Assembly: GCF_001192835.1 (NCBI RefSeq)
Contig: NZ_DF968183.1
Coordinates: 930,001-994,000, forward strand
Length of the DNA: 64,000 bases
Origin: Lentimicrobium saccharophilum
Lineage (GTDB): Bacteria > Bacteroidota > Bacteroidia > Bacteroidales > Lentimicrobiaceae
Reading direction: 5' to 3'
The position numbers were made by a program, and so were the translations under genes. Shown here in pieces: positions 24,343 through 35,429 of this stretch. Within the stretch, counting starts at the first letter, position 1. Each line of letters starts with the position of its first letter. A model generated the notes under the pieces. That model was not told the DNA's origin. It saw nothing but the letters and a program-made list of their open reading frames with translations, and made no database searches.

Positions 24343-25791
24343 CTACTTTTCAAAAAACATTTCATTGAAATTGACCAGGTAAACTTCGGTGGTCGAGCGG
24401 GTCAGCGCGGTGTACAACCACCTGACAAAACCGGCGTCCACCATTTCTGCAGTCAGATAGCCATGGTCAATAAATACGGCATCCCACTGCCCGCCCTGGG
24501 TTTTATGGCAGGTAAGCGCATAGGCAAACTTGGCCTGAACGGCATTATAAAACTGACTGCTTTTCACCTTTTCAACCCTGGCTTTTTCAGATGTAATCTC
24601 AGTGTAATCAAGAAGAATTTCATCAAAGAGTTTCTGCATCTCCTCCTGGGGCATATTGGGCGTATTCGTGTTCATGGAGTCAAGCAGCAGTTTCACGTCA
24701 ATTACCTCTTCTTCAGGATAATCAACCAGCTTGATACTCACATCCGCGAACCTGTATCCGTACATTTCTCCGATATGTCTTATTCTGCGCACCTCCGCCA
24801 TATCGCCATTGGCTATAAACCCGGCTTTCGCTCCCGAAGGCAGCCAGAAATAATTATTCCGGGTTATCATAATGATATCGCCGGCCGAGAGTTCTGTTTC
24901 CCTGAAAAGCAGCCGTGCGCGCACCTCATTGTTAAAAAGGTTGGCGCGTTTGTTCGACCGTGTGATGATTGCCGTGTTTTCAACCCCAAACCTTGAGTAG
25001 CATGAATTGAGGGCATCTTCGAAGGAAGCGCCGTCAATCATCCGGATATCTTCAAACCCCCGGAGGTGAAAAAACGGCAATTCCGGTTTCTCAGGGGTTA
25101 ATTGCCGCCTCAGACGGGTGGCATTGGTAAGTATTCCGCTTTCCAGCGATTGACGCACGACTTCATGCAACTCATAAACAACAGTATCCAGGTGGTACTG
25201 ATTATTCAGAATATCCTCATCCAATGCCGGGCTTTCTTCATTGCCGACAGGAGGTAACTGCGCCCGGTCGCCGATCAGGATAAGTCGGCATCCCTCACTG
25301 CTGTATACATAAGTAATCAGGTCGTCGAGCAGGTCGCGGTGGCCATAGATGCCGGATTCCCCGGCTCCCCCCGGTCCGGGAATCATCGAAGCCTCATCTA
25401 CAATAAAAAGCGAATATTTATGGGGATTGGCCGAAAGTTCCATCCTCAGTTTGCCATCCTCCGCAGAAATGGCTTTATAAATCTTCCGGTGAATTGTCAA
25501 CGCCTGCTTTCTTGAGTAAGAAGCCAGCACCTTGGCGGCCCTTCCGGTGGGGGCCAGCAATACGGATTGCAATCCGGCAAGGGGGAGTATCCTCACCAGC
25601 GCGCTCACCAGTGAAGTTTTACCGGTACCGGCGTAACCGCGAAGCAGAAAAGCGGGCTGCCGGTGAGGTTTTTGCGGCTCAGTGATAAAGGTACTCAGTA
25701 ACTGAACCAGCGTTTTCTGACCTTCCGTAGGCTCGTGCCCCAGTTCATTCAATATATTGCCGGCCATCAGCCGTGTATCCAATTCAATCAT
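24343..25791 (-). CDS. RecD-like superfamily 1 helicase
   Basis: The 482-aa ATPase shows Walker A GYAGTGKTS (52-60), Walker B VDEASM, GDRAQLPPVG and a UvrD-C2-type end with YALTCHKTQGGQWDAVFID and LYTALTRST. It is a short RecD/Pif1-type helicase without the long N-terminal region of RecD2. This form is common in Bacteroidota as a stand-alone gene. It presumably acts 5'-3' on DNA in repair or replication. It is 15 bp after tamL and likely cotranscribed. Confidence 0.88.
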   Translation of the reverse strand: MIELDTRLMAGNILNELGHEPTEGQKTLVQLLSTFITEPQKPHRQPAFLLRGYAGTGKTSLVSALVRILPLAGLQSVLLAPTGRAAKVLASYSRKQALTIHRKIYKAISAEDGKLRMELSANPHKYSLFIVDEASMIPGPGGAGESGIYGHRDLLDDLITYVYSSEGCRLILIGDRAQLPPVGNEESPALDEDILNNQYHLDTVVYELHEVVRQSLESGILTNATRLRRQLTPEKPELPFFHLRGFEDIRMIDGASFEDALNSCYSRFGVENTAIITRSNKRANLFNNEVRARLLFRETELSAGDIIMITRNNYFWLPSGAKAGFIANGDMAEVRRIRHIGEMYGYRFADVSIKLVDYPEEEVIDVKLLLDSMNTNTPNMPQEEMQKLFDEILLDYTEITSEKARVEKVKSSQFYNAVQAKFAYALTCHKTQGGQWDAVFIDHGYLTAEMVDAGFVRWLYTALTRSTTEVYLVNFNEMFFEK

Positions 25792-25806
25792 GTTGTTTTT
25801 TCCGTA

Positions 25807-28182
25807 TCAGAAAGGATAACCAATTCCAAAATTCCAGGTAATATCGCGCAACTGAAATTTTGATATGCTGAACCACCGGCTATCTGTTAATTTTCCGGGG
25901 TCATAAACCGGCAATCCCCCGTCAATCCTGAAGATAAAAAAGCTGAAATCGAACCGGAGACCCAATCCTGTATCCAATGCCAAGGAAGCAGGTAATTTTT
26001 TCAAATCCAGCTTTCCCCCGGGAAAGTCTTCATTCTCCCTGAGCAGCCAGATATTTCCGGCATCAACAAATAATGCGCCATTCAGAAAGCTATACATTGG
26101 AAAACGGTATTCCAGGTTCGCTTCAAGCCAGATATCACCAACACGTTCAAACCCGGATTTTACAGGGGTATAGTACTCACCCGGGCCCACAGACCTGATT
26201 GGCCAACCGCGCAATCCATTGGCTCCTCCGGCAAAAAAGCCCTTTTCAAAAGGCAGTACGGATGAGTTTCCGTAAGGAACGCCCACCCCCAATGCCGCCC
26301 TGTATACCAGTTGCTGTTTTGCCGTCAAAGGCTTATAATAACGGAAGTCAAAATCTGTCCTTATATACTGGGCAAATCTGATCCTGAAAAGGGTAAAGTT
26401 CCCATCCTCATCTACGGGTGCATTTGCAATATTGCTGTAAAGATTAAGAAGATTCCCGGCAGATTCGAAATTAGCCCTGAAATAGAAATAATTTTTCTTA
26501 CTGGAAAGATTCTGATTATTAAAGATAAAGGAATACTTCAGGGCCATCACCAGGTGATCGGTGTATTGATTCAGGTACCGCGGATCTTTAAAATCCTTTA
26601 AAATGGCATTGAAAGTGCTGTCGCGAACAATGCTCACCGAACTCAGTTCAACAGGTGAAAAAAGATGCCGGGTGGTATTGCTGCTATACCAGTCATAGCC
26701 AAACGAAGCATAACTCACATACCTGGTATAATAACTTCGCTGCTGATAATTAAGACCAAGAGCAACAGTGGTTTTCGCCCTGTAATTCCGGTTGATTCCC
26801 TCTATCCGGAAAGGGCTGAGTAATGTTGGAAAATCCAGACCTGTTTCAACCCCAGCCTCAAGTGAATTAAAGATTCCTGCCCGGGTTTCAATTCCCAGCC
26901 CGAGGTCCGGTTCAACCTCGAAAGCGCCACGCAACTTTAACCTGAATGTTTCCGCCCCTCTGAAAATATTCCTGTTGCGGTAATTCAAACTGCCTCCCAA
27001 CCCAACAAATCCTCCTGCATTGGTGGCCTCTACTTCAGGATTAATCATATTCACCGGACTTCGTACCATTCGGATATCACAGTCGAGCAGCGAAATGCCC
27101 TCAGGTTGCAGTTCAGGCGCAATTTCGGCAGGATTCAGGTTCACGGACACAAATCTGCTTAAACCCAGGTTCTGAAGGCGATTATAGGTGAGATTAATTT
27201 TTTGCTGGTTAAAAGGGGTTCCGGGTTGAATAAATACTGCCCTTGATAATGCTGCAGGCCGTATACGCAACCTGTTTTTGTATATCAGGTAAAAATCGGG
27301 ATTTGGCTGAAGCAGCGTATCGTGATTTTTCCTGTATGCAAGAGTATCATTTGTCGGTAAAGAATCGCCAACCATTTCAGCAAAGTTGGTATTCACAAAA
27401 ATATTGCTGATAAAATAACGCTGGTGGGGACGGAATGAAGCTGAATCCATCAGACCGGAAGGTTTTGTCCTGACATTCTCAATCCTGACTTTGATGTCAG
27501 CTTTACACTTTTCTCTTGTCGTATCTACTTCAAAAAAAATATATTCCCGTGAAAAAGCATAGTAGCCGGCATCTTTCAGTACCCGGGTGATGCGTTCGCG
27601 TTCATCCCGAATCAGATAAGCATCGTACTGCTTTCCTGAAGTAATCAGCGAAGCCGTTCCTTCTGTATTAAGGAAATAACGAAGGCTGTCGTCCGGAATA
27701 TCAAAAACCACTTGTCCGAAAATAAACGGATCTTTGGTTTTGGTCTGATAATTTACAAAAGCCCTGGCCCCCCTGAATTCTATCCTGCGCTGCACTTCTG
27801 CGCCAAAGTAGCCTTTGTTGTTAAGATAGACCCTCATAGGGATGAGGGAGTTGTCAATCAATGCAGAATCGAGCAATACGGGAGCTCTTCCAAGGTTATT
27901 CCGCATCCACCGCTTGAATTTCCGGTCTTTTCCACCTGAATTCAAATCATAAACCAATACCCCGGGCCTGAATAAACCCAGAAATTTCCGGTTGGGCTTT
28001 GGCTGAGCGAAGTTAAGAAGGTCGTATGTGTCGATACCCGGCCTGTCCGCCTTAACACTGTGCCCGGCCATAAGATAACCACCCCTTTTCTGAACCTTCC
28101 TGGCAGGACTGCAGGAAGCAAACAGCAGCAATAATGCCGTATAAAATGTTAAGCGAAGAATTAAGGTCGAATTACGAAGCAT
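25807..28182 (-). CDS. tamL: TamL-type Omp85 (BamA/TamA family) outer-membrane lipoprotein
   Basis: The 791-aa protein has a lipoprotein signal with lipobox FASC, POTRA-like repeats (about 110-370), and a C-terminal Omp85 barrel. The barrel contains FFAGGANGLRGWPIRSVGPGEY (lid/loop-6 region with RGW) and ends in GIGYPF. The lipidated N-terminus marks it as TamL, the Bacteroidota version of TamA that helps insert outer-membrane proteins. ATG 28182 is chosen over 28197 because a -7 element lies just upstream of the latter. Confidence 0.88.
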   Translation of the reverse strand: MLRNSTLILRLTFYTALLLLFASCSPARKVQKRGGYLMAGHSVKADRPGIDTYDLLNFAQPKPNRKFLGLFRPGVLVYDLNSGGKDRKFKRWMRNNLGRAPVLLDSALIDNSLIPMRVYLNNKGYFGAEVQRRIEFRGARAFVNYQTKTKDPFIFGQVVFDIPDDSLRYFLNTEGTASLITSGKQYDAYLIRDERERITRVLKDAGYYAFSREYIFFEVDTTREKCKADIKVRIENVRTKPSGLMDSASFRPHQRYFISNIFVNTNFAEMVGDSLPTNDTLAYRKNHDTLLQPNPDFYLIYKNRLRIRPAALSRAVFIQPGTPFNQQKINLTYNRLQNLGLSRFVSVNLNPAEIAPELQPEGISLLDCDIRMVRSPVNMINPEVEATNAGGFVGLGGSLNYRNRNIFRGAETFRLKLRGAFEVEPDLGLGIETRAGIFNSLEAGVETGLDFPTLLSPFRIEGINRNYRAKTTVALGLNYQQRSYYTRYVSYASFGYDWYSSNTTRHLFSPVELSSVSIVRDSTFNAILKDFKDPRYLNQYTDHLVMALKYSFIFNNQNLSSKKNYFYFRANFESAGNLLNLYSNIANAPVDEDGNFTLFRIRFAQYIRTDFDFRYYKPLTAKQQLVYRAALGVGVPYGNSSVLPFEKGFFAGGANGLRGWPIRSVGPGEYYTPVKSGFERVGDIWLEANLEYRFPMYSFLNGALFVDAGNIWLLRENEDFPGGKLDLKKLPASLALDTGLGLRFDFSFFIFRIDGGLPVYDPGKLTDSRWFSISKFQLRDITWNFGIGYPF

Positions 28183-28198
28183 GGTTAAGTTCTGCATG

Positions 28199-28206
28199 CA
28201 AATTTA
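28199..28206 (-). promoter_or_regulatory. Candidate -7 element for tamL
   Basis: On the minus strand TAAATTTG matches TAnnTTTG, 17 bp before ATG 28182. No TTG is found at -33 spacing. Confidence 0.35.
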
Positions 28207-28690
28207 ATGTAAATGTGGATTGACAGATACATTGAACAGTTGAATAACGCATCTTATAACAGGTTCAGATTTCTGAAACTGTTCTACCTAAAATTTTGTC
28301 AATGATTACTTTATCCGGAAACATTGCTGTCCGGTTAATTATGAGATTCTTCTCCCGCATTTTGCGGGATCAGAATGACTTTGACTTACATGGGTTTGAG
28401 GAAGAAGGGGCCTGGTGTCGGCTATTCCACCACCAAGCCCCCTATAATTATCGTTAATGTATTGTCATTCTGAACGTAACGTTGTAAATTGAAGAACCAA
28501 TCCCGATAGCTGTCGGAAGGGCTCACCAAAGGTAATCTCATAACTACTTCCAAAGGTTTACCGGCCAATAATGATCCGGAAAAAATCATGCTATAACTCA
28601 ATTTCATGCAAATCAAAGAGATATTCAAATATAAAACATTGTTTTTCTGCTACTTATCTTTTATTCATTTTTTTAGCTTTTTTTTCATTG
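28207..28690. other. Long intergenic stretch with inverted and dispersed-type repeats
   Basis: No gene is convincing here. The stretch holds a 12-bp near-palindrome (28258-28283, one mismatch). It also has two segments that look like the dispersed 'attctgaac / gagattcttc' strings common between genes in this phylum (about 28341-28378 and 28460-28520, the latter with cccgatagctgtcgg). Oligo-T tracts precede the tRNA-Val promoter at the right end. The short minus-strand open frame at 28422-28628 shows no protein-like features. Confidence 0.4.
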
Positions 28691-28695
28691 CGCTA

Positions 28696-28725
28696 TTGCC
28701 AGAATCAAAATTGTGATTAAATTTG
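28696..28725 (+). promoter_or_regulatory. Promoter of tRNA-Val and the GIY-YIG array
   Basis: TTG (28696-28698) and TAAATTTG (28718-28725) are 19 bp apart, a full consensus match. The tRNA begins 43 bp later. It is the only promoter-like signal I see before the whole tandem array. Confidence 0.65.
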
Positions 28726-28768
28726 CAGCCTCATTCGACGCGTACATTATCAATGTAAGCAGAAAATC

Positions 28769-28843
28769 GGGAGCATAGCTCAGCTGGTTCAGAGCACCTG
28801 CCTTACAAGCAGGGGGTCACAGGTTCGAACCCTGTTGCTCCCA
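28769..28843 (+). tRNA. tRNA-Val (anticodon UAC)
   Basis: This is a 75-nt cloverleaf with acceptor GGGAGCA / TGCTCCC, D-arm GCTC...GAGC, anticodon arm CCTGC-CTTACAA-GCAGG with anticodon UAC, and T-arm ACAGG-TTCGAAC-CCTGT. The discriminator is A and CCA is not encoded. It is intact and has its own promoter. Its 3' third is repeated twice more downstream at a 348-bp spacing. Confidence 0.95.
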
Positions 28844-28847
28844 CAAC

Positions 28848-28873
28848 AAAAAGCCACTAAACGTGGCTTTTTT
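28848..28873 (+). terminator. Hairpin terminator between tRNA-Val and the first GIY-YIG gene
   Basis: The stem AAGCCAC / GTGGCTT with loop TAAAC is followed by a six-T run. It starts 5-8 nt after the tRNA 3' end, and the nuclease ATG comes only 7 nt after the T-run. Confidence 0.8.
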
Positions 28874-28879
28874 GCATTT

Positions 28880-29152
28880 ATGCCATATACTTATATACTC
28901 TTTTCTGAAAGCCTTAACAGATTTTATACCGGTTCAACCAGAGATACTGTAGATGTAAGACTCTACAAACATAATAACAGGCACTCCGGGTTTACCGCAG
29001 GCGCCAGGGATTGGGTGGTTGTTTTTTCAGAATACTTTGACAATTATGTTGATGCCAGAGCAAGGGAGTTACAAATCAAAGCCTGGAAGAGCAGAAGAAG
29101 CATTATTCAATTGATTGAGAAAGCCAGAAACGGTTCAGGGCATCCCGGCTGA
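28880..29152 (+). CDS. GIY-YIG family nuclease, copy 1
   Basis: The 90-aa product is a minimal GIY-YIG domain. It has YTYILFSESLNRFYTGST (the GIY...YIG region, here TYI...YTG), a conserved Arg in VDVRLYKH, a His-containing loop, and the metal-binding Glu in ARARELQIKAWKSRRS. Small Slx1/UPF0213-like proteins of this size are common in Bacteroidota, with no settled function. It starts 7 nt after the terminator of tRNA-Val, so translation would need read-through. Its last codons (HPG, stop) are the D-loop and anticodon-arm part of a tRNA-like segment. A one-base shift at the end would extend it into the T-arm as a tail containing GHRFEPCCSH. Confidence 0.85.
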   Translation: MPYTYILFSESLNRFYTGSTRDTVDVRLYKHNNRHSGFTAGARDWVVVFSEYFDNYVDARARELQIKAWKSRRSIIQLIEKARNGSGHPG

Positions 29153-29191
29153 CAGCCGGGAGGGTCACAGGTTCGAACCCTGTTGCTCCCA
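29132..29191 (+). other. tRNA-like 3' module 1 (D-loop to acceptor 3' end)
   Basis: From GGTTCAGGGCA (compare GGTTCAGAGCA in tRNA-Val) through a hairpin, a variable loop GGGTC, T-arm ACAGG-TTCGAAC-CCTGT and TGCTCCCA, this segment mirrors tRNA-Val from D-loop to 3' end. The 5' acceptor strand is missing. The hairpin CCCGG-CTGACAG-CCGGG (29144-29160) has a seven-base loop with U33 and A37. It would read as anticodon GAC, a valine anticodon different from the UAC of the intact gene. It cannot form a complete tRNA by itself. Confidence 0.7.
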
Positions 29192-29195
29192 CAAC

Positions 29196-29221
29196 AAAAA
29201 GCCACTAAACGTGGCTTTTTT
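29196..29221 (+). terminator. Hairpin terminator, unit 2
   Basis: Identical in sequence to the hairpin after tRNA-Val: a 7-bp stem and six T residues, just before the second GIY-YIG ATG. Confidence 0.75.
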
Positions 29222-29227
29222 GCATTT

Positions 29228-29500
29228 ATGCCATACACTTATATACTCTTTTCTGAAAGCCTTAACAGATTTTATACCGGTTCGACCAGAGATACTGTAG
29301 ATGTGAGACTTTACAAACACAAGAACAGGCACTCCGGGTTTACCGCAGGCGCCATGGATTGGGTGGTTGTTTTTTCAGAATACTTTGACAATTATGTTGA
29401 TGACAGAGCAAGGGAGTTACAGATCAAAGCCTGGAAAAACAGAAGAAGCATTATTCAATTGATTGAGAAAACCAGAAACGGTTCAGGGCATCCCGGCTGA
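29228..29500 (+). CDS. GIY-YIG family nuclease, copy 2
   Basis: The 90-aa product is nearly identical to copy 1, with five replacements (Asn to Lys, Arg to Met, Ala to Asp, Ser to Asn, Ala to Thr). The nuclease signature residues and the Glu in DRARELQIKAWKN are all kept. Seven of the twelve base changes between the copies are silent, which hints that the protein was under selection after the duplication. It has the same short distance to an upstream terminator and the same HPG-stop end. Confidence 0.85.
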   Translation: MPYTYILFSESLNRFYTGSTRDTVDVRLYKHKNRHSGFTAGAMDWVVVFSEYFDNYVDDRARELQIKAWKNRRSIIQLIEKTRNGSGHPG

Positions 29501-29539
29501 CAGCCGGGAGGGTCACAGGTTCGAACCCTGTTGCTCCCA
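29480..29539 (+). other. tRNA-like 3' module 2 (D-loop to acceptor 3' end)
   Basis: Identical to module 1, including the GAC-type loop, T-arm and TGCTCCCA end, and placed exactly 348 bp further on at the end of GIY-YIG copy 2. Confidence 0.7.
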
Positions 29540-29543
29540 CAAC

Positions 29544-29569
29544 AAAAAGCCACTAAACGTGGCTTTTTT
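29544..29569 (+). terminator. Hairpin terminator, unit 3
   Basis: A third identical copy of the 7-bp stem and six-T run, preceding the GIY-YIG remnant. Confidence 0.7.
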
Positions 29570-29575
29570 GCATTT

Positions 29576-29610
29576 ATGCCATATATATATACTATTTTCT
29601 GAAAGCCTTA
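29576..29610 (+). pseudogene. Remnant of a third GIY-YIG gene
   Basis: The start of the nuclease gene is recognisable (ATG CCA TAT) but a small deletion shifts the frame. Translation stops after eight codons (TGA at 29600-29602), and similarity ends around 29609 in unrelated sequence. Only the first ~35 bp of the gene survive. Confidence 0.8.
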
Positions 29611-29704
29611 TCCTCAACCTTAGCCTTAACTTTATTTTCTCTCCTTTCCACTCAATCCGCGCAGAGTTCTTATTTTTACAATTCTAATCAATAATTGCTC
29701 GAAT

Positions 29705-30208
29705 ATGTTTCCATACAGGATCGGCATGGGTTACGATGTTCATCAACTGGCTGACGGACTTCCATTCGTACTGGGAGGCGTCAGGATAGATCACTCAAGA
29801 GGAGCCGTCGGGCATTCTGATGCCGATGTCCTGCTCCATGCGATTTGCGATGCCTTGCTGGGGGCCGCCGGGCTCCGGGACATCGGTTATCATTTTCCTG
29901 ATAGTTCGGATGAATACAAAGGGATTGACAGCAGAATTCTGCTCAAACACACCATCAGGTTGTTGAGTGAAAATGAATGGCAGACCGGCAACATCGATTG
30001 CACCATAGCACTGCAGCGCCCTAAGATTGCCGGTTATATTCAGAAAATGCAGGAAGAAATCGAGACCTTAACAGGATCAGGGCCAGGCAGTGTATCTGTT
30101 AAAGCGACAACCACAGAGCATCTGGGGTTTACAGGCCGCGAGGAGGGGGTTGCCGCCTGGGCTGTTGCACTGATCTATAAATCCGGTTCAGATCATTTTA
30201 ACCATTGA
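29705..30208 (+). CDS. ispF: 2-C-methyl-D-erythritol 2,4-cyclodiphosphate synthase
   Basis: IspF closes the cyclodiphosphate ring in the MEP isoprenoid pathway. The 167-aa protein begins with the metal-binding GYDVH (Asp11, His13). It continues with HSDADVLLHAICDALLGAAGLRDIGYHFPD and the C-terminal ATTTEHLGFTGREEGVAAWAV, all strongly conserved. It functions as a cytoplasmic trimer. The start ATG 29705 gives the normal length. It is immediately downstream of the decayed end of the GIY-YIG array. Confidence 0.97.
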   Translation: MFPYRIGMGYDVHQLADGLPFVLGGVRIDHSRGAVGHSDADVLLHAICDALLGAAGLRDIGYHFPDSSDEYKGIDSRILLKHTIRLLSENEWQTGNIDCTIALQRPKIAGYIQKMQEEIETLTGSGPGSVSVKATTTEHLGFTGREEGVAAWAVALIYKSGSDHFNH

Positions 30209-30265
30209 TATTCTCTTTATCCCTGCCACTAAATAACAACCAGAGAAAAGCACACCAAGGCCACC

Positions 30266-31219
30266 ATGACCATAAAATACATCCCTGCGCATCAGATTGA
30301 CAAACCCGCATGGGATAACTGCATCCGGTCAGCAGTAAATGGAAATATTTATGCATTTTCCTGGTATCTTGACCTGATGTGCGACAGTTGGGATGCTTTG
30401 GTTGCCGATGAATACAGCGCAGTTTTTCCACTGACCTTCAGGCAAAAGGCGGGCGTCACCTATCTGTACCAGCCATTTTTCACACAACAACTCGGCATAT
30501 TCTCTATCAACCACCTTACACCGGAATCAGTAGAACAGTTTTTGCAAGCGATTCCCGAAAAATTCAGGTTTGCGGAAATTAATCTCAATACCTTTAACAA
30601 GCCTGATGCAGTTCGTTGGAGAATCATTCAAAGCATCAATCATGAACTCGATCTGATTGAACCATACGAGCAGATCAGCCGGGGTTATTCGGAGAACATA
30701 CGCCGCAACATTTCCAAAGCAGCGAAAAACGGCATTACCATTTCAACAAATGTCAAACCCGAAGAGATAATCACCCTTTTCAGAAGCAACAAAGGCCTAA
30801 ATATCAGCCATTTGGGCGAATATGATTACAGACGCCTGTTACGACTGATCTACCAATGCCTTCACGATCATAAGGCAATTTGCTATGGTGCTTATACCAG
30901 CAACAATACCTTCTGCGCGGGAGCCGTTTTCGTTTTCAGCCACCGGAAAGCCATATTCCTGTTTTCAGCTACCGGAGCGGAAGCGAGAACCACTGGCGCC
31001 ATGTCATTCCTGATCGATCGTTTTATCCAGGATTCGAGTGGCAATCACCTCACCCTTGACTTCGAAGGCTCAAATGATTCCAATCTGGCAAGGTTTTACC
31101 GTGGTTTCGGGGCTAAAGTTATCACCTACCCTTCACTCAGATTTAATCGCTTGCCCTTGCACCTGAACATGATGATGAAAATTGTCAAAATGCTGAGAAA
31201 GATTTACCTGAAAAAATAA
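30266..31219 (+). CDS. FemAB/GNAT-like acyltransferase
   Basis: The 317-aa protein has no signal peptide and appears to consist of two GNAT-like halves. The N-terminal half contains NIYAFSWYLDLMCDSWDALV. The C-terminal half contains GAVFVFSHRKAIFLFSATGAEAR and DFEGSNDSNLARFYRGFGAK, the last resembling the acyl-CoA or aminoacyl binding end of FemAB/FemX-like proteins. Such proteins add amino acids or acyl groups to sugars or peptidoglycan; the acceptor is unknown. It is 57 bp after ispF and shares a bidirectional terminator with convergent porV. Confidence 0.7.
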   Translation: MTIKYIPAHQIDKPAWDNCIRSAVNGNIYAFSWYLDLMCDSWDALVADEYSAVFPLTFRQKAGVTYLYQPFFTQQLGIFSINHLTPESVEQFLQAIPEKFRFAEINLNTFNKPDAVRWRIIQSINHELDLIEPYEQISRGYSENIRRNISKAAKNGITISTNVKPEEIITLFRSNKGLNISHLGEYDYRRLLRLIYQCLHDHKAICYGAYTSNNTFCAGAVFVFSHRKAIFLFSATGAEARTTGAMSFLIDRFIQDSSGNHLTLDFEGSNDSNLARFYRGFGAKVITYPSLRFNRLPLHLNMMMKIVKMLRKIYLKK

Positions 31220-31245
31220 ATCACCGGAATGTCTTACCAGCCTGC

Positions 31246-31287
31246 TTTTAACAGAAAGCCCCGGAATTCCGGGGCTTTCTGTTAAAA
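31246..31287. terminator. Perfect 42-bp palindrome, bidirectional terminator
   Basis: Twenty-one bases on each side are exact inverse complements around GGAATTCC, with TTTT at the left and AAAA at the right. It therefore forms a stem followed by U residues on either strand. It lies between the convergent stops of the FemAB-like gene and porV. Confidence 0.88.
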
Positions 31288-31307
31288 ATTGCTGAATTAT
31301 CTTATCA

Positions 31308-32540
31308 TCAGTTCTGATTATTCTGTTTCTGGAAAGCTTCAAAGTCGAAGTGCAGGGTAAACCTGAGTGTATTCTCCAGCGGATTTTTAGCCTGGCCTCC
31401 GGTAGGAATCAGATAGGCAAAATCAAGACCGAAAACATTGTAGCGCAAACCGGCACCAAGGGTAAAGAATTTCCTGTTTCCTTTTGTCCTGTCCTCATGG
31501 AAGTATCCCCCGCGAATGGCAAACTGTTTGTCATACCAGTATTCCACGCCAACGGCGAATGACAATTCACGGATCTCTTCGTTGAACCCGCCGGGTGCAT
31601 CAAAAAATGACTGGAACATTCCGACCGGAACAGATACATTGGGATCTTTACCTTTAAAGATCAACTGGTTTCCATTGTCATCGTAAATCGGCTGTCCGGT
31701 CAATGAATCGGTAGCATATATCGGAGGTGTGGGAATCAGCAGTTTGTTGATGTCAACCATAAATGAAAGCCGGTTATACTCATCAATGTCCAGGGTAAGT
31801 GAAGGGCCTAAACGGAGGTTGGTAGGAATAAAATCGCGCTGTGTATTGTCGTCAGAATAGGAAATTTTCGCCCCAATGTTGCTGATATTAAGACCCCAGG
31901 CAAAGAATCCTTCCATATTCGGAAACTCAACGTCATGACGTGAATAAATGGCAATATCGGCCGCAATGGAGTTGCCGGGTTTGGTGGAAGCACCACCAAC
32001 GCTCTGCCCTTGTGTCAGATTGGAGTGGATGAAGCGGGCGGTTACGGCTCCCGATAAGTTTTTAGTCAGCATTCTCGAATAAGAACCGCTTATGGCAAAC
32101 TCGTTGGGCCTGTAATTACCGATTGTAGCTCCCTGAATATCAGTAAATGTGATATCTCCCAGGGAAAAATAAAGCAGGGAGCCGGAAACCACCTGATTGT
32201 TTCCCAATTTTTTGTATCCGGTAAGATAAGCAAGATTAATATCGCTGACAAGGGCCCGCAACCATGGGCTGTATGACAGTGAAAATCCCATCTCATTCTC
32301 AATGTATGAATATTTTGCCGGATTCCAGTGCATGGAATTGGCATCGGGCGTACTCGAAACACCAGCCTCTCCCATCCCGCCTGAACGCGCATCTGGAGCT
32401 ATCTGCAGGAATGGAACCGCAGTGGTGATAGTATTCAAATCCTGTCCAATATAGGTTGTTGATTGAGCATTGATGGATTCAGAAAAAAAAGCAAAAAGGC
32501 CGGTAACAAGGCATAATTGCAGAACCGATTTAATACGCAT
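31308..32540 (-). CDS. porV: T9SS outer-membrane protein PorV (LptO)
   Basis: PorV is a FadL-like 14-strand barrel that shuttles type IX cargo from the SprA translocon to the attachment complex. The 410-aa protein has a signal peptide ending SINAQ, then IGQDLNTITTAVPFLQIAPDARSGGMGEAGVSSTPDANSMHWNPAK, the strongly conserved PorV start. It ends with the barrel strand NTLRFTLHFDFEAF. ATG 32540 is chosen over TTG 32567 because the latter overlaps the -7 element. Confidence 0.93.
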   Translation of the reverse strand: MRIKSVLQLCLVTGLFAFFSESINAQSTTYIGQDLNTITTAVPFLQIAPDARSGGMGEAGVSSTPDANSMHWNPAKYSYIENEMGFSLSYSPWLRALVSDINLAYLTGYKKLGNNQVVSGSLLYFSLGDITFTDIQGATIGNYRPNEFAISGSYSRMLTKNLSGAVTARFIHSNLTQGQSVGGASTKPGNSIAADIAIYSRHDVEFPNMEGFFAWGLNISNIGAKISYSDDNTQRDFIPTNLRLGPSLTLDIDEYNRLSFMVDINKLLIPTPPIYATDSLTGQPIYDDNGNQLIFKGKDPNVSVPVGMFQSFFDAPGGFNEEIRELSFAVGVEYWYDKQFAIRGGYFHEDRTKGNRKFFTLGAGLRYNVFGLDFAYLIPTGGQAKNPLENTLRFTLHFDFEAFQKQNNQN

Positions 32541-32564
32541 ACAGTACTTTTTGATTGAAGTGTG

Positions 32565-32572
32565 CAAAGTTA
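32565..32572 (-). promoter_or_regulatory. Candidate -7 element for porV
   Basis: On the minus strand TAACTTTG matches TAnnTTTG, 25 bp upstream of ATG 32540. No TTG at -33 spacing. Confidence 0.4.
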
Positions 32573-32769
32573 TTGATAATTTCTAAACGAACGAACGTTA
32601 AACAAACGATTACAGCCGGAGTTTATTGCACCGGGTACATTTTTGCAGGATATCAGGTAATAACATCGTAAATGGTCTTTTATTGTTGTTATTATCAATA
32701 ATTGTAAAATTTTAAAAATCAGGTTTATCTCGCTTAAACCATGAATGACTCCTTTACAATGAAAACCAG

Positions 32770-33300
32770 CTATCTGAAGAATAATCCGGTCGCACTTAAC
32801 ACAATAGACCAGACTACTACAGAAACACATAGCATAACCAAAGATCCGGCCCTGCCTGACGAATAACGGTAAGTTAAAATAGTCCCCAAAGGTATCGAAA
32901 GAAGCACAGGAGTAAGAATAATAATTCCGGCCAGACCATAACGGCGGAAAAACCAAACAATCAACCGGTTGCGGCGGCTGAAACGCCTGCGGGTCAGAGA
33001 AGCAGGCGAAGGAGTAGCCTTAAACCCGGAAATATTCCTGAAAACGCTGAAATACATGCGAAAACCAATTCTATCGCTAAAAATCACGTACCTGCTCAAA
33101 TAATGGAAAAACACAATTCCTGAAATACCTCCCAGACTAGTTATCAGAATGGTATGTATAAATGAATTCCCGAAAATATATGATGCAGGAACGGCAAAGA
33201 TAAACTTGACAGAACTGATCAGGGCAACCCAAAAGTTGGCGGACAGGTTGCCGCCTTCCATAAGCAATATATCATTCATTTGAGCAAACAAATAGTTCAT
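32770..33300 (-). CDS. Small multi-pass membrane protein of unknown function
   Basis: The 176-aa product has about four hydrophobic helices (residues ~22-45, 48-70, 120-145, 150-174). A very basic loop with TRRRFSRRNR lies between the second and third. The segment RRYGLAGIIILTPVLLSIPLGTIL resembles the re-entrant region of DedA/SNARE-associated-like transporters, but the protein is shorter and this is only a resemblance. Methionines at positions 8 and 14 are alternative starts. It is alone between porV and the M23 gene. Confidence 0.6.
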   Translation of the reverse strand: MNYLFAQMNDILLMEGGNLSANFWVALISSVKFIFAVPASYIFGNSFIHTILITSLGGISGIVFFHYLSRYVIFSDRIGFRMYFSVFRNISGFKATPSPASLTRRRFSRRNRLIVWFFRRYGLAGIIILTPVLLSIPLGTILTYRYSSGRAGSLVMLCVSVVVWSIVLSATGLFFR

Positions 33301-33707
33301 TTATCAGGTTCATTATCAGTTATATCCGAGGTATTATCCACGTGCGATCATTAACGTTTTTAAACCGCTATTGTTCAACAAAGAAATACCTGAAACAGTA
33401 GTCATAACACCTGAAACGGCAAATATCGCTGATGCCGGAGAAGCCACAGATTTTGCAACTGCTGGGAAGCAAATTTTAGCCTGGTACTGATACCGGAATA
33501 TTATTCCTAAACTAAAATATGTACCGATTATTGTGACAATACCTTCACAATCAAAGAGTTTTCATGCATAAGCACCTGCTTTTTTCCCTTCCTTTGAAAA
33601 GAATTAATAAACTTCATTTTTCGTGTTTCATCTGCCCTTCTGCGCGATAGCGATCATCATGACAACCCATAATAACTTATCTTTGTCCGGTTGAATAAGA
33701 TAAATGC
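33301..33707. other. 407-bp intergenic stretch before the M23 peptidase gene
   Basis: The stretch contains upstream regions for two diverging genes. A plus-strand frame is open up to TGA at 33488-33490 and encodes a 39-residue acidic stretch from TTG 33371, but no ATG starts it and it has no recognisable domain. A -7-like element for the M23 gene lies at 33678-33685. I see nothing else. Confidence 0.4.
33678..33685 (+). promoter_or_regulatory. Candidate -7 element for the M23 peptidase gene
   Basis: TATCTTTG matches TAnnTTTG and lies 22 bp before ATG 33708. No TTG at -33 spacing. Confidence 0.4.
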
Positions 33708-35429
33708 ATGAAACCTCGCCGGATCTGTTTTAGTTTTTTCATTTCACTGCTGATACCAACCCTTTCAAATGCCCAGCAAAGCTATCCTAAAGACGACTTT
33801 ATAGCACCCGTTGAGTTTCCGATGCTGTTATCTGGGACTTTTGCAGAACTCAGAAGCAACCATTTTCATTCAGGAATAGATATCAGAACGCAGGGTGTTG
33901 AAGGAAAGAAAATTCTCGCCTGTGCTGATGGTTATGTTTCGCGCATCAGGATTTCTCCATTCGGATTTGGTAAAACTGTTTACATAACGCATCCTAATGG
34001 CTATTCTACAGTATATGCCCACCTTTCAGGCTTCAACCCTGAAATAGCCGCGTGGTCCAGGGCTGAACAATACAGGATGGAACAGTTTGATGTTGATCTT
34101 TTTCCTGAAGCCGGACTTATTCAAGTAAAGCAGGGAGATGTAATAGGTTATTCAGGTAATTCAGGCTCTTCGCAGGGTCCACATCTTCATTTCGAAATCA
34201 GGGACTCCGGAACAGAACGTCCTGTCAACCCGCTGCTCTTCGGGATTGCTGTAAAGGATTTTACAAGACCCACCATCAATGGAATAAGGCTTTACCCTGA
34301 AGGAGCAAACGCGCTGATCAACGGAAAAGCAACTCCCTTCAATCCCGGCATTGCAGGCTGGGGACTTTCTTACCGGTTTTCAAAATCTGACACCATCGAG
34401 GTATCCGGAGGTGTTTCATTCGGCATCAACGCGCACGATCTGCTCAGCGGCAGCAATAACAAAAACGGCATTAACCGTATCACTGTATTTAATGGTAATG
34501 AAATATTTTTTGAATGGAATGCTGAATCCTTTAGTTTTAGTGAAACCAGATATATCAACAGTTTTATTGATTATGCAACCTATTCATCTTCACGCGAAAG
34601 GTTCATGCGAACAAAAGTTGAACCCAACAATAAACTAAGCCTGTATAGAAAAGTGACAGGAAACGGGATACTAAATATCAGGGCTGACATCGTTTATCCG
34701 ATCAGAATTGAAATCGCCGATGGCTCGGGAAATACTTCAGCGATAAAATTCGTGATAAGAGGGAAAGTTGCACAGAACGGAGTTATAAAACCAAGAATCG
34801 ACGGGCAGGTATTCAGCTATAAGCGGTTAAACCGTTTTGTAACGCCACATCTGAAAATTTCCATGCCGGGCAGCTGTCTTTACGACAGCATTGTTTTCGA
34901 ATACAACTCCACCGCTTCCGACGGAAATTCCTGCGCCCCGGTGCACATGATTCACAATGCTGAAACACCGGTTCATGATTATTATGATCTCTCGATCAGG
35001 GTGGACACGGCATATCATAAACTGGCGGACAAGCTTGTAATGGTAATCCTGAACAACAAAGACAAACCATCCTCAGCAGGAGGCAAATATCAAAACGGCT
35101 TTCTAAATGCGAGGGTCCGCGAATTCGGGAGGTTTTCGGTAATGGCAGATACTATAGCCCCTGTTATTAAACCGCTGAATATCGCTAACAATAAAAAGAT
35201 CAGCGCACAGCAAAGTATTCGCGTGAGTATCAGCGATAACCTTTCGGGTATTAAGTCTTACCGGGGAACGCTGAACGGCAAGTGGATACTGATGGACTAT
35301 GATCCAAAAAACAATTTGCTGAAATACAATTTTGATGAATTAATAAATCCGGGAGTTAATGAATTTTTACTGGAAGTTACTGATGATGCAGGCAACAAGA
35401 GCAGTTACAATGCTTTGCTCATAAATTGA
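33708..35429 (+). CDS. M23 family metallopeptidase (LytM domain)
   Basis: The 573-aa protein has a Sec signal ending NAQQ. An M23 domain (about 45-190) follows, with zinc ligands H54 and D58 (HSGID) and H159-x-H161 (HLHFEI), plus the catalytic His105 region TVYAHLSG. The C-terminal ~370 residues are beta-rich, with Ig-like repeats and a terminal stretch containing SDNLSGIKSYRGTLNGKW. The enzyme would cut peptide cross-links in peptidoglycan in the periplasm or act as a LytM-like regulator. The active site is complete, so catalysis is likely. Confidence 0.9.
   Translation: MKPRRICFSFFISLLIPTLSNAQQSYPKDDFIAPVEFPMLLSGTFAELRSNHFHSGIDIRTQGVEGKKILACADGYVSRIRISPFGFGKTVYITHPNGYSTVYAHLSGFNPEIAAWSRAEQYRMEQFDVDLFPEAGLIQVKQGDVIGYSGNSGSSQGPHLHFEIRDSGTERPVNPLLFGIAVKDFTRPTINGIRLYPEGANALINGKATPFNPGIAGWGLSYRFSKSDTIEVSGGVSFGINAHDLLSGSNNKNGINRITVFNGNEIFFEWNAESFSFSETRYINSFIDYATYSSSRERFMRTKVEPNNKLSLYRKVTGNGILNIRADIVYPIRIEIADGSGNTSAIKFVIRGKVAQNGVIKPRIDGQVFSYKRLNRFVTPHLKISMPGSCLYDSIVFEYNSTASDGNSCAPVHMIHNAETPVHDYYDLSIRVDTAYHKLADKLVMVILNNKDKPSSAGGKYQNGFLNARVREFGRFSVMADTIAPVIKPLNIANNKKISAQQSIRVSISDNLSGIKSYRGTLNGKWILMDYDPKNNLLKYNFDELINPGVNEFLLEVTDDAGNKSSYNALLIN

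Follow-up and report, generated by a model that had tools for sequence, protein, structure and literature searches.

Positions 28769–29610 of a 64,000-nt stretch of the Lentimicrobium saccharophilum genome (hereafter the window; contig NZ_DF968183.1, positions 930,001–994,000) hold an intact tRNA-Val gene and, behind it, two complete 348-bp units and the remains of a third, each complete unit having a GIY-YIG nuclease gene as its single gene. The array is rather probably a minimal insertion element whose sole gene encodes the nuclease and which rebuilds the tRNA gene that it enters, a bacterial, tRNA-specific counterpart of the mobile open reading frames (mORFs) of fungal mitochondria. This reading draws on the anatomy of the units, on empty orthologous sites, on a genus in which the native tRNA end is found displaced, and on purifying selection acting on the nuclease.

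All features of the array lie on the plus strand. The host gene of the element, tRNA-Val(TAC), is intact (28769–28844; detected by ARAGORN, with an RF00005 match of 73.5 bits), its anticodon arm occupying 28797–28813. A terminator-like hairpin with a T run (28848–28873) stands between the tRNA and the first nuclease gene (28880–29152, 90 amino acids; Pfam PF01541, E 9.2e-13), whose reading frame enters a displaced piece of tRNA-Val (29132–29192) matching tRNA positions 18–76 at 85%. This piece starts with a copy of a D-arm segment, GGTTCAGGGCA (29132–29142), and then lacks the anticodon stem-loop, in place of which is a perfect 19-nt hairpin with an 8-bp stem, TCCCGGCTGACAGCCGGGA (29143–29161). 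The nuclease stop codon falls within that hairpin (TGA, 29150–29152), past which the displaced copy resumes and continues to the tRNA 3′ end (29162–29192, 31/31 identical). In RNA folding the displaced piece forms two separate hairpins. The second unit repeats this order, with a terminator-like hairpin (29196–29221), a second 90-amino acid nuclease gene (29228–29500; protein 94% identical, Pfam E 3.5e-10), the D-arm segment (29480–29490), the hairpin in place of the anticodon arm (29491–29509), and the tRNA 3′ part (29510–29540). A third terminator-like hairpin (29544–29569) precedes the broken start of a third nuclease gene copy (29576–29610), and the array is broken after ∼29610. Direct repeats starting at 28814, 29162, and 29510 give an exact 348-bp spacing, and copies 1 and 2 are 96% identical over 300 nt. 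The two nuclease genes differ by 7 synonymous and 5 nonsynonymous changes and are therefore not an assembly duplicate.

A preliminary description of this DNA had already recognized the intact tRNA-Val, the two 348-bp units, and the decayed third, with which the coordinates, repeats, and ORFs agree, and it had assigned the 90-codon genes to the GIY-YIG family, both of which score above the Pfam cut-off (48.8 and 40.5 bits against 22.6). It placed the unit boundary at the tRNA 3′ end, which is incorrect since the copied tRNA begins in the D arm. Repeated insertion, which it offered beside duplication to explain the tandem copies, is not shown, and unequal crossing-over of near-identical units is simpler. 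The exchange of an arm for a hairpin in the displaced copy, and a mirror form of the element treated below, had been missed.

The next gene after the array, starting at 29705, reads as ispF, and no mobile-element gene was noticed among the ORFs listed for 25000–34000. In two genomes of the window's genus (G003 and G011), tRNA-Val is followed by ispF after 161 to 162 bp, with no GIY-YIG match in the tRNA-Val/ispF locus; these are empty sites, and they provide the comparison of orthologous loci with and without the insertion that had been proposed as a check. In G004 and G013 (loci L150 and L151; also L031), which are close to the window genome by upstream sequence, the same tRNA-Val holds what reads as a tyrosine-recombinase element. 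Approximately 11 kb downstream in G004 are found the last part of the same nuclease, an identical hairpin, and the tRNA 3′ end, followed by the ispF region (86% identical). Retention of the array end in G004 indicates that the array is older than the split between G004 and the window's genome.

Native and foreign ends are indistinguishable in the window itself. They can be told apart in a genus of the same class, g51, whose genomes often carry two or three identical tRNA-Val copies; in one of them, G465, two Val loci are occupied (L332 and L333). At most occupied g51 loci read, the working tRNA is followed by the element-type terminator AACTCCAAA..TTTGGAGTT or a close variant. At four of the 11 loci read (L331, L335, L341, and L068), the sequence behind the last displaced piece is CAAGAAACTCCTTAAG..., which gives the encoded CCA and the native terminator, as at the empty tRNA-Val loci L334 and L342. 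The foreign flank on the working tRNA and the displacement of the native end show that, in this one genus, the element entered the tRNA gene itself and restored it, which substantiates the earlier proposal that an element carrying its target's end had entered a tRNA gene and left the tRNA intact. A g51 locus followed by its shared upstream sequence is full in G465 (L332) and G500 (L341) and has lost the nuclease in G083 (L331), where the terminator and displaced piece are kept; in G504 (L345, G504:C1:442600-444800) degenerate tRNA-Val pieces ∼187 bp apart lie behind an intact tRNA-Val, with no nuclease. In this arrangement, the commoner 3′ form, the native 5′ part of the tRNA is followed by the element-borne rest of the tRNA, an element-borne terminator, and the nuclease gene, after which come a brief repeat of the tRNA sequence preceding the junction, a hairpin standing for one arm, and the displaced native 3′ end with its terminator. 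Since the element supplies a tRNA end of its own, the tRNA that it interrupts is restored immediately.

Relatives of the window nuclease are widespread. A second case occurs in the same genome (L001), where a tRNA-like piece and then a copy of the terminator come after a GIY-YIG gene that lies directly behind tRNA-Asp. Of 60 genomes searched with the window protein, 25, including its own, had matches, several with genes in tandem. Fifteen of these matching proteins were aligned (A1) and used as the model for a search of the phylum, which matched 225 of 392 genomes, again including its own, at E values up to 1e-12 and with as many as five nuclease copies in an array (L041). Given these relatives, 361 related stretches in named genomes, and the differences between the window copies, chance or an assembly artifact is ruled out. 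From the phylum search, 109 loci (L038–L146) were taken, 29 fetched automatically and 80 picked down the ranked list, with tandem neighbors merged and the window's own genome (L037) left out of the counts. An intact tRNA on the same strand lies within 300 bp upstream in 85 loci and within 150 bp downstream in 8; 16 have neither, some of these being cut by a contig end. Thus 93 of 109 loci adjoin an intact tRNA, a fraction drawn from the best-ranked hits of a model based largely on tRNA-linked proteins rather than from a random sample, and so not that of all GIY-YIG genes. Ten isotypes are represented (Asp 17, Asn 16, Val 15, Gly 15, Ala 9, Ser 7, Pro 6, Arg 4, Lys 2, and Met 2). A sister GIY-YIG family of the same phylum has a tRNA at 0 of 30 loci, and the tRNA link is therefore not due to chance. 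In a named-genome set, comprising the best 80 of the 361 related stretches, 13 reach a contig end and, of the remaining 67, 55 adjoin an intact tRNA; hosts in this set are Ignavibacteria, Melioribacteraceae, Cloacimonadota, Calditrichota, Marinimicrobia, Aquimarina, Marinifilum, Pontibacter, Fodinibius, and others. The named set overlaps the 109 loci (L317/L122, L318/L075, and L293/L141), and the counts are not added. The preliminary description had named, as what would weaken the mobile-element idea, tandem units confined to one strain with no tRNA-linked GIY-YIG genes elsewhere; the search that it suggested found such genes in both sets.

Two further loci have unusual surroundings. In L011 (G018:C6:68639-71872) a CRISPR array (repeat GTCGCGCTCCGCAGGGGCGCGTGGATTGAAAC) abuts a GIY-YIG gene, which is followed by a hairpin-swapped tRNA-Val piece, and ARAGORN detected no intact tRNA in the locus. 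Around the two nuclease genes of L012 (G020:C3:7166-10408) lie many tRNA-Val-like copies of full length in which the anticodon arm is swapped; some are predicted as tRNAs by ARAGORN, including one as tRNA-Phe, such that annotation may count false tRNAs there.

The exchange of a tRNA arm for a hairpin was scored where the two 9-nt flanks of a hairpin beside a nuclease gene each agreed with one and the same tRNA in at least 8 positions and the part of the tRNA between the two matches was absent. This was found at 59 of the 93 tRNA-linked loci (57/85 in the 3′ form and 2/8 in the mirror form) compared to 1 of 93 control stretches, and at 38/55 loci of the named set compared to 1/55 controls. These counts come from a junction test that looks after each nuclease copy. 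A simpler 20-nt test, looking after the last nuclease only, found a tRNA 3′ copy in 44 of these 85 3′-form loci; the anticodon arm was absent in 42 of the 44, and 41 had a hairpin. Among Val, Ala, Arg, Lys, and Pro loci of the 3′ form, junction 26|44 in standard numbering, the exact removal of the anticodon stem-loop, is the commonest (16 of 22). Junction 49|58 is seen in 10/12 Asp loci (16/16 in the named set) and 6/13 Gly loci, with 4 more Gly loci at 49|65, and the T arms of Asp and Gly are alike. Of the 59 hairpins, 41 run from TCCCG to CGGGA around a variable inner stem, and 16 are of another type.

Hairpin position follows both nuclease lineage and isotype. On a nuclease tree of 108 rows and 87 columns, in which 54 of 105 inner branches are unresolved, isotype requires 21 changes (92 rows), compared to a mean of 62.7 and a minimum of 56 in 200 shufflings, and host family requires 40 compared to 60.0 when shuffled (91 rows, 17 families). 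Replacement of the anticodon arm versus the T arm changes only 3 times (shuffled mean 13.5, minimum 9 of 500; 40 rows), consistent with hairpin position following lineage; for all four junction classes there are 14 changes (shuffled mean 28.6, minimum 21; 57 rows, of which 13 are classed as "other").

In the mirror form, the intact tRNA lies downstream of the nuclease gene (8 of 109 loci; 5 of 80 in the named set). The first 12 nt of the tRNA recur upstream of the nuclease at 11 to 12 of 12 positions in 7 of 8 and 3 of 5 of these loci, respectively. This form restores the 5′ side of the tRNA and leaves a hairpin-bearing 5′ piece upstream. At three mirror loci (L088, L102, and L127) the nuclease domain extends into the intact tRNA, which presumably is transcribed through the nuclease gene.

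The nuclease comprises a GIY-YIG catalytic domain in which Y16, G18, R27, and H31 are invariant and E63 is at least 90% conserved (15-row alignment), and neither ORF matched an NCBIfam model at E 0.001. The nearest solved structures by sequence are UPF0213 proteins (1zg2 and 1ywl), followed by the structure-specific nuclease SLX1. Across 17 adjacent tandem-copy pairs (75% to under 100% identical, with identical pairs and pairs below 75% left out) there are 92 synonymous and 79 nonsynonymous changes, and the ratio of nonsynonymous to synonymous change (pN/pS) is 0.21. These values support purifying selection, extending the silent changes that the preliminary description had cited, with the tandem copies and conserved residues, for a selected element, and the nuclease is probably functional judging from its sequence evolution. 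In the window, the gap between tRNA and nuclease is 35 nt and contains the terminator-like hairpin; the fold of 28845–28880 has a z-score of −4.75, and a consensus terminator scan called no terminator at this hairpin. The median gap between tRNA and nuclease domain is 51 nt (135 loci of the 3′ form, from two overlapping sets). The promoter motif TAnnTTTG occurs in 8 of these 135 gaps and within 70 nt before the tRNA in 45 of 135, and is thus a weak guide. The nuclease gene is likely expressed by read-through from the tRNA promoter, and expression is probably weak, the gene sitting behind a terminator-like hairpin.

Several of these observations bear on an alternative in which the array is a by-product of tRNA-locus duplication: unequal recombination would copy part of a tRNA gene together with an adjacent nuclease gene, and palindromes mobile across the genome would land in the dead tRNA copy next to a vertically inherited nuclease with a host role. 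We consider this unlikely. TCCCG..CGGGA palindromes are indeed dispersed in this genome (179 compared to 54 for a reversed control), 30 of 43 sites in the 20 regions read lie outside ORFs of at least 120 codons, pseudo-tRNA arrays with hairpins and no nuclease exist (L345 and, by sequence reading, L202), and the tracking of isotype fits vertical descent. However, random landing predicts neither the recurrence of the hairpin position within isotypes nor its agreement with nuclease lineage, and is disfavored on both counts. Simple duplication gives neither the foreign flank on the working tRNA nor the native flank on the displaced end that are seen in g51, and empty and filled orthologous loci are found within genera. 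L202 (G000:C1:876000-877800) consists of five ∼114-bp tandem units, read as minus-strand tRNA pieces with the hairpin TCCCGGCCCCGGCCGGGA in each; the units are too short for a nuclease gene. Upstream of the window tRNA, at 28353–28369, a dispersed TCCCG..CGGGA palindrome lies inside a GATTCTTC...CAGAATGAC stretch, and a similar stretch with another hairpin occurs at L088.

In a second alternative, GIY-YIG enzymes would spread or maintain TCCCG..CGGGA palindromes, much as REP-associated tyrosine transposases (RAYTs) do for repetitive extragenic palindromic (REP) sequences, and tRNA genes would be used because their arms are hairpins. Beside genes of the sister family, 11 TCCCG palindromes fall in 11.0 kb of intergenic DNA within 400 bp, compared to 0 in 5.2 kb further away and 3 in 19.7 kb of other flanks; palindromes lie on both sides of some sister genes (L220, L238, and L239, and L246 with another palindrome); and the structure-specific SLX1 nucleases come directly after UPF0213 among the nearest solved structures. 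L002/L220 (G000:C1:839396-840627) is a sister-family GIY-YIG gene of the window's own genome, with two TCCCG palindromes on each side. A first count of sister-family palindromes (21 in 21.6 kb compared to 6 in 32.4 kb) shrank when only intergenic DNA was compared, the TCCCG type alone still being enriched. This excess, however, comes from 6 of 27 usable loci, and GC-rich palindromes of all kinds number 17 in the near 11.0 kb, 6 in the far 5.2 kb, and 11 in the 19.7 kb of other flanks, and so are little enriched against the first of these controls. Moreover, the 16 of 59 loci with an arm replaced by another hairpin type do not fit this alternative. TCCCG..CGGGA stands above control in many, not all, of the 392 genomes. 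In a test of palindrome load, for which 235 of the 392 genome rows were entered (twelve families) and 211 rows in seven families were testable, a tRNA-linked nuclease was a weak predictor of palindrome excess (lowest p 0.025), inconsistent across the seven host families, with two pointing the opposite way. We therefore judge this alternative improbable. A signal from 6 of 27 loci and a weak link across genomes leave palindrome-moving GIY-YIG enzymes as part of only the boldest reading, namely an unrecognized class of mobile tRNA-rebuilding elements in Bacteroidota and related phyla, each driven by a single small GIY-YIG nuclease that would act on one given hairpin arm of its tRNA gene, this arm being exchanged for TCCCG..CGGGA, with related GIY-YIG enzymes moving palindromes around genomes as a second, transposase-free system beside REPIN-RAYT; we regard it as decidedly doubtful.

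The weakest alternative, in which the nuclease would cut tRNA itself and the hairpin-bearing pseudo-tRNA would be a resistant decoy or antidote in a tRNA-targeted toxin-antidote pair, agrees with the association of nuclease lineages with isotype and arm, with the common loss of one tRNA arm to the hairpin, and with a spacing of nuclease and tRNA near enough for co-transcription, but it is scarcely credible given that the GIY-YIG enzymes known to us all cut DNA, that the displaced piece of the 3′ form has no acceptor 5′ strand and folds in the window as two separate hairpins, and that native and foreign 3′ flanks would be left unexplained.

The reading as an insertion element that rebuilds its tRNA must itself be weighed against several observations. 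In g51, native and foreign ends are clean in only four of the 11 loci read, while six do not decide, and the working tRNA of L336 has a native-type terminator; a working tRNA without an encoded CCA is seen in L331, L341, and L068 and not in L335. Identical tRNA-Val loci in occupied g51 genomes (L334, L340, L342, and L343) have neither nuclease nor displaced piece, L346 not being a clean empty site, and such empty paralogs argue against the simplest homing model and against a target consisting of tRNA sequence alone. A target including flanking DNA, or very low activity, would reconcile them. The tRNA-Val sequence is 76/76 identical with and without the element, both in g51 and in the window's genus, which leaves classical self-immunity unexplained and leads us to reject a recoded tRNA as its basis for Val; the displaced copy has lost one arm in 59 of 93 loci, yet the rebuilt tRNA still holds the presumed target, of which flanks could be part. 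The strict hairpin test is failed by 34 of the 93 tRNA-linked loci, the junctions of 8 Asn loci fall at six different places, and hairpin position is to a great extent confounded with isotype, whose tracking on the nuclease tree would be expected from old vertical inheritance with many losses as well. The 90-amino acid protein has hardly any sequence outside the GIY-YIG domain. No match to the window protein was found in viral contigs or phages, and none to one relative's protein in plasmids. To these is added the ranked sampling of the 109 loci given above.

An insertion element of this kind could spread as follows. The nuclease, of a lineage matched to tRNA isotype and arm, would break an unoccupied tRNA locus, and the break would be repaired by recombination with an occupied locus, the tRNA itself providing homology on both sides, such that the whole element is copied in. 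This break-repair copying is modeled on the proposal for fungal mORFs. The hairpin may serve to take the target arm out of the displaced copy, and later unequal crossing-over between units would produce tandem arrays, including that of the window.

If this reading is correct, essential tRNA genes of a major bacterial group have been repeatedly entered by a ∼350-bp parasite that survives by repairing the damage it causes. Such a self-spreading element would be very small, and it would account for small GIY-YIG genes beside tRNA genes. Replacement of an arm at lineage-linked positions would then be a clue to nuclease recognition, and perhaps to the spread of short palindromes. For annotation, tRNA fragments and small ORFs at such sites can belong to one element.

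No published description of the element was found in open-licence PubMed Central papers, a search in which subscription papers and preprints are mostly not covered. Several known systems share some of its features. Free-standing GIY-YIG homing endonucleases are exemplified by SegB of phages T4 and T6, which lies beside tRNA genes and which in T6 is needed for recombination-dependent tandem amplification of a segment containing tRNA and nuclease genes (PMC13096335). SegB, insofar as the excerpts of that report go, is thus akin to the present nuclease in its position beside tRNA genes and offers a mechanistic parallel for the tandem arrays. It differs in being a phage gene by phage tRNAs, and no rebuilt tRNA end or hairpin-swapped copy is described in the parts of that source consulted (PMC13096335). 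The window tRNA is uninterrupted before the nuclease gene, unlike a tRNA gene holding a group I intron that is spliced out. Integrative and conjugative elements (ICEs) and prophages insert in tRNA 3′ ends, bring a substitute 3′ end, and encode an integrase. The element described here likewise inserts in a tRNA gene with a substitute 3′ end, but each full 348-bp unit has one 90-amino acid GIY-YIG gene as its only gene, in place of an integrase. RAYTs are Y1 (HUH) transposases (PF01797), not GIY-YIG enzymes, and Pfam gives only GIY-YIG here. REPIN-RAYT systems, according to the portions of the reports seen, similarly pair a DNA-processing gene with nearby short palindromes dispersed in the genome (PMC3116915, PMC2817692), whereas here the palindrome takes the place of a tRNA arm. 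UPF0213 and SLX1 proteins are alike in being the nearest solved structures by sequence, as noted above.

The arrangement is most reminiscent of fungal mitochondrial mORFs, described for atp6, atp9, cox2, and nad3 in Allomyces and Glomus, in which, as far as the sections seen describe them, an endonuclease gene lies in a host gene, a foreign gene end replaces the native end, the native end is displaced downstream, and close relatives are without the insertion (PMC3630166). The same features are found here: a nuclease gene in the host gene with a foreign end and a displaced native end at four of 11 g51 tRNA-Val loci read (L331, one of the four, having since lost the nuclease), and closely related empty alleles in G003 and G011, with L334 and L342 as empty paralogous loci in g51. 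The present element differs in residing in bacterial chromosomes, in tRNA rather than protein genes, within a total of ∼350 bp, and in having an arm-replacing hairpin, a mirror form, tandem arrays, and at least ten tRNA isotypes as hosts. It also encodes a GIY-YIG enzyme, compared to LAGLIDADG in the atp6 case as reported in those sections (PMC3630166). By analogy of anatomy, the window element may thus be regarded as a bacterial, tRNA-specific variant of the fungal mORFs.

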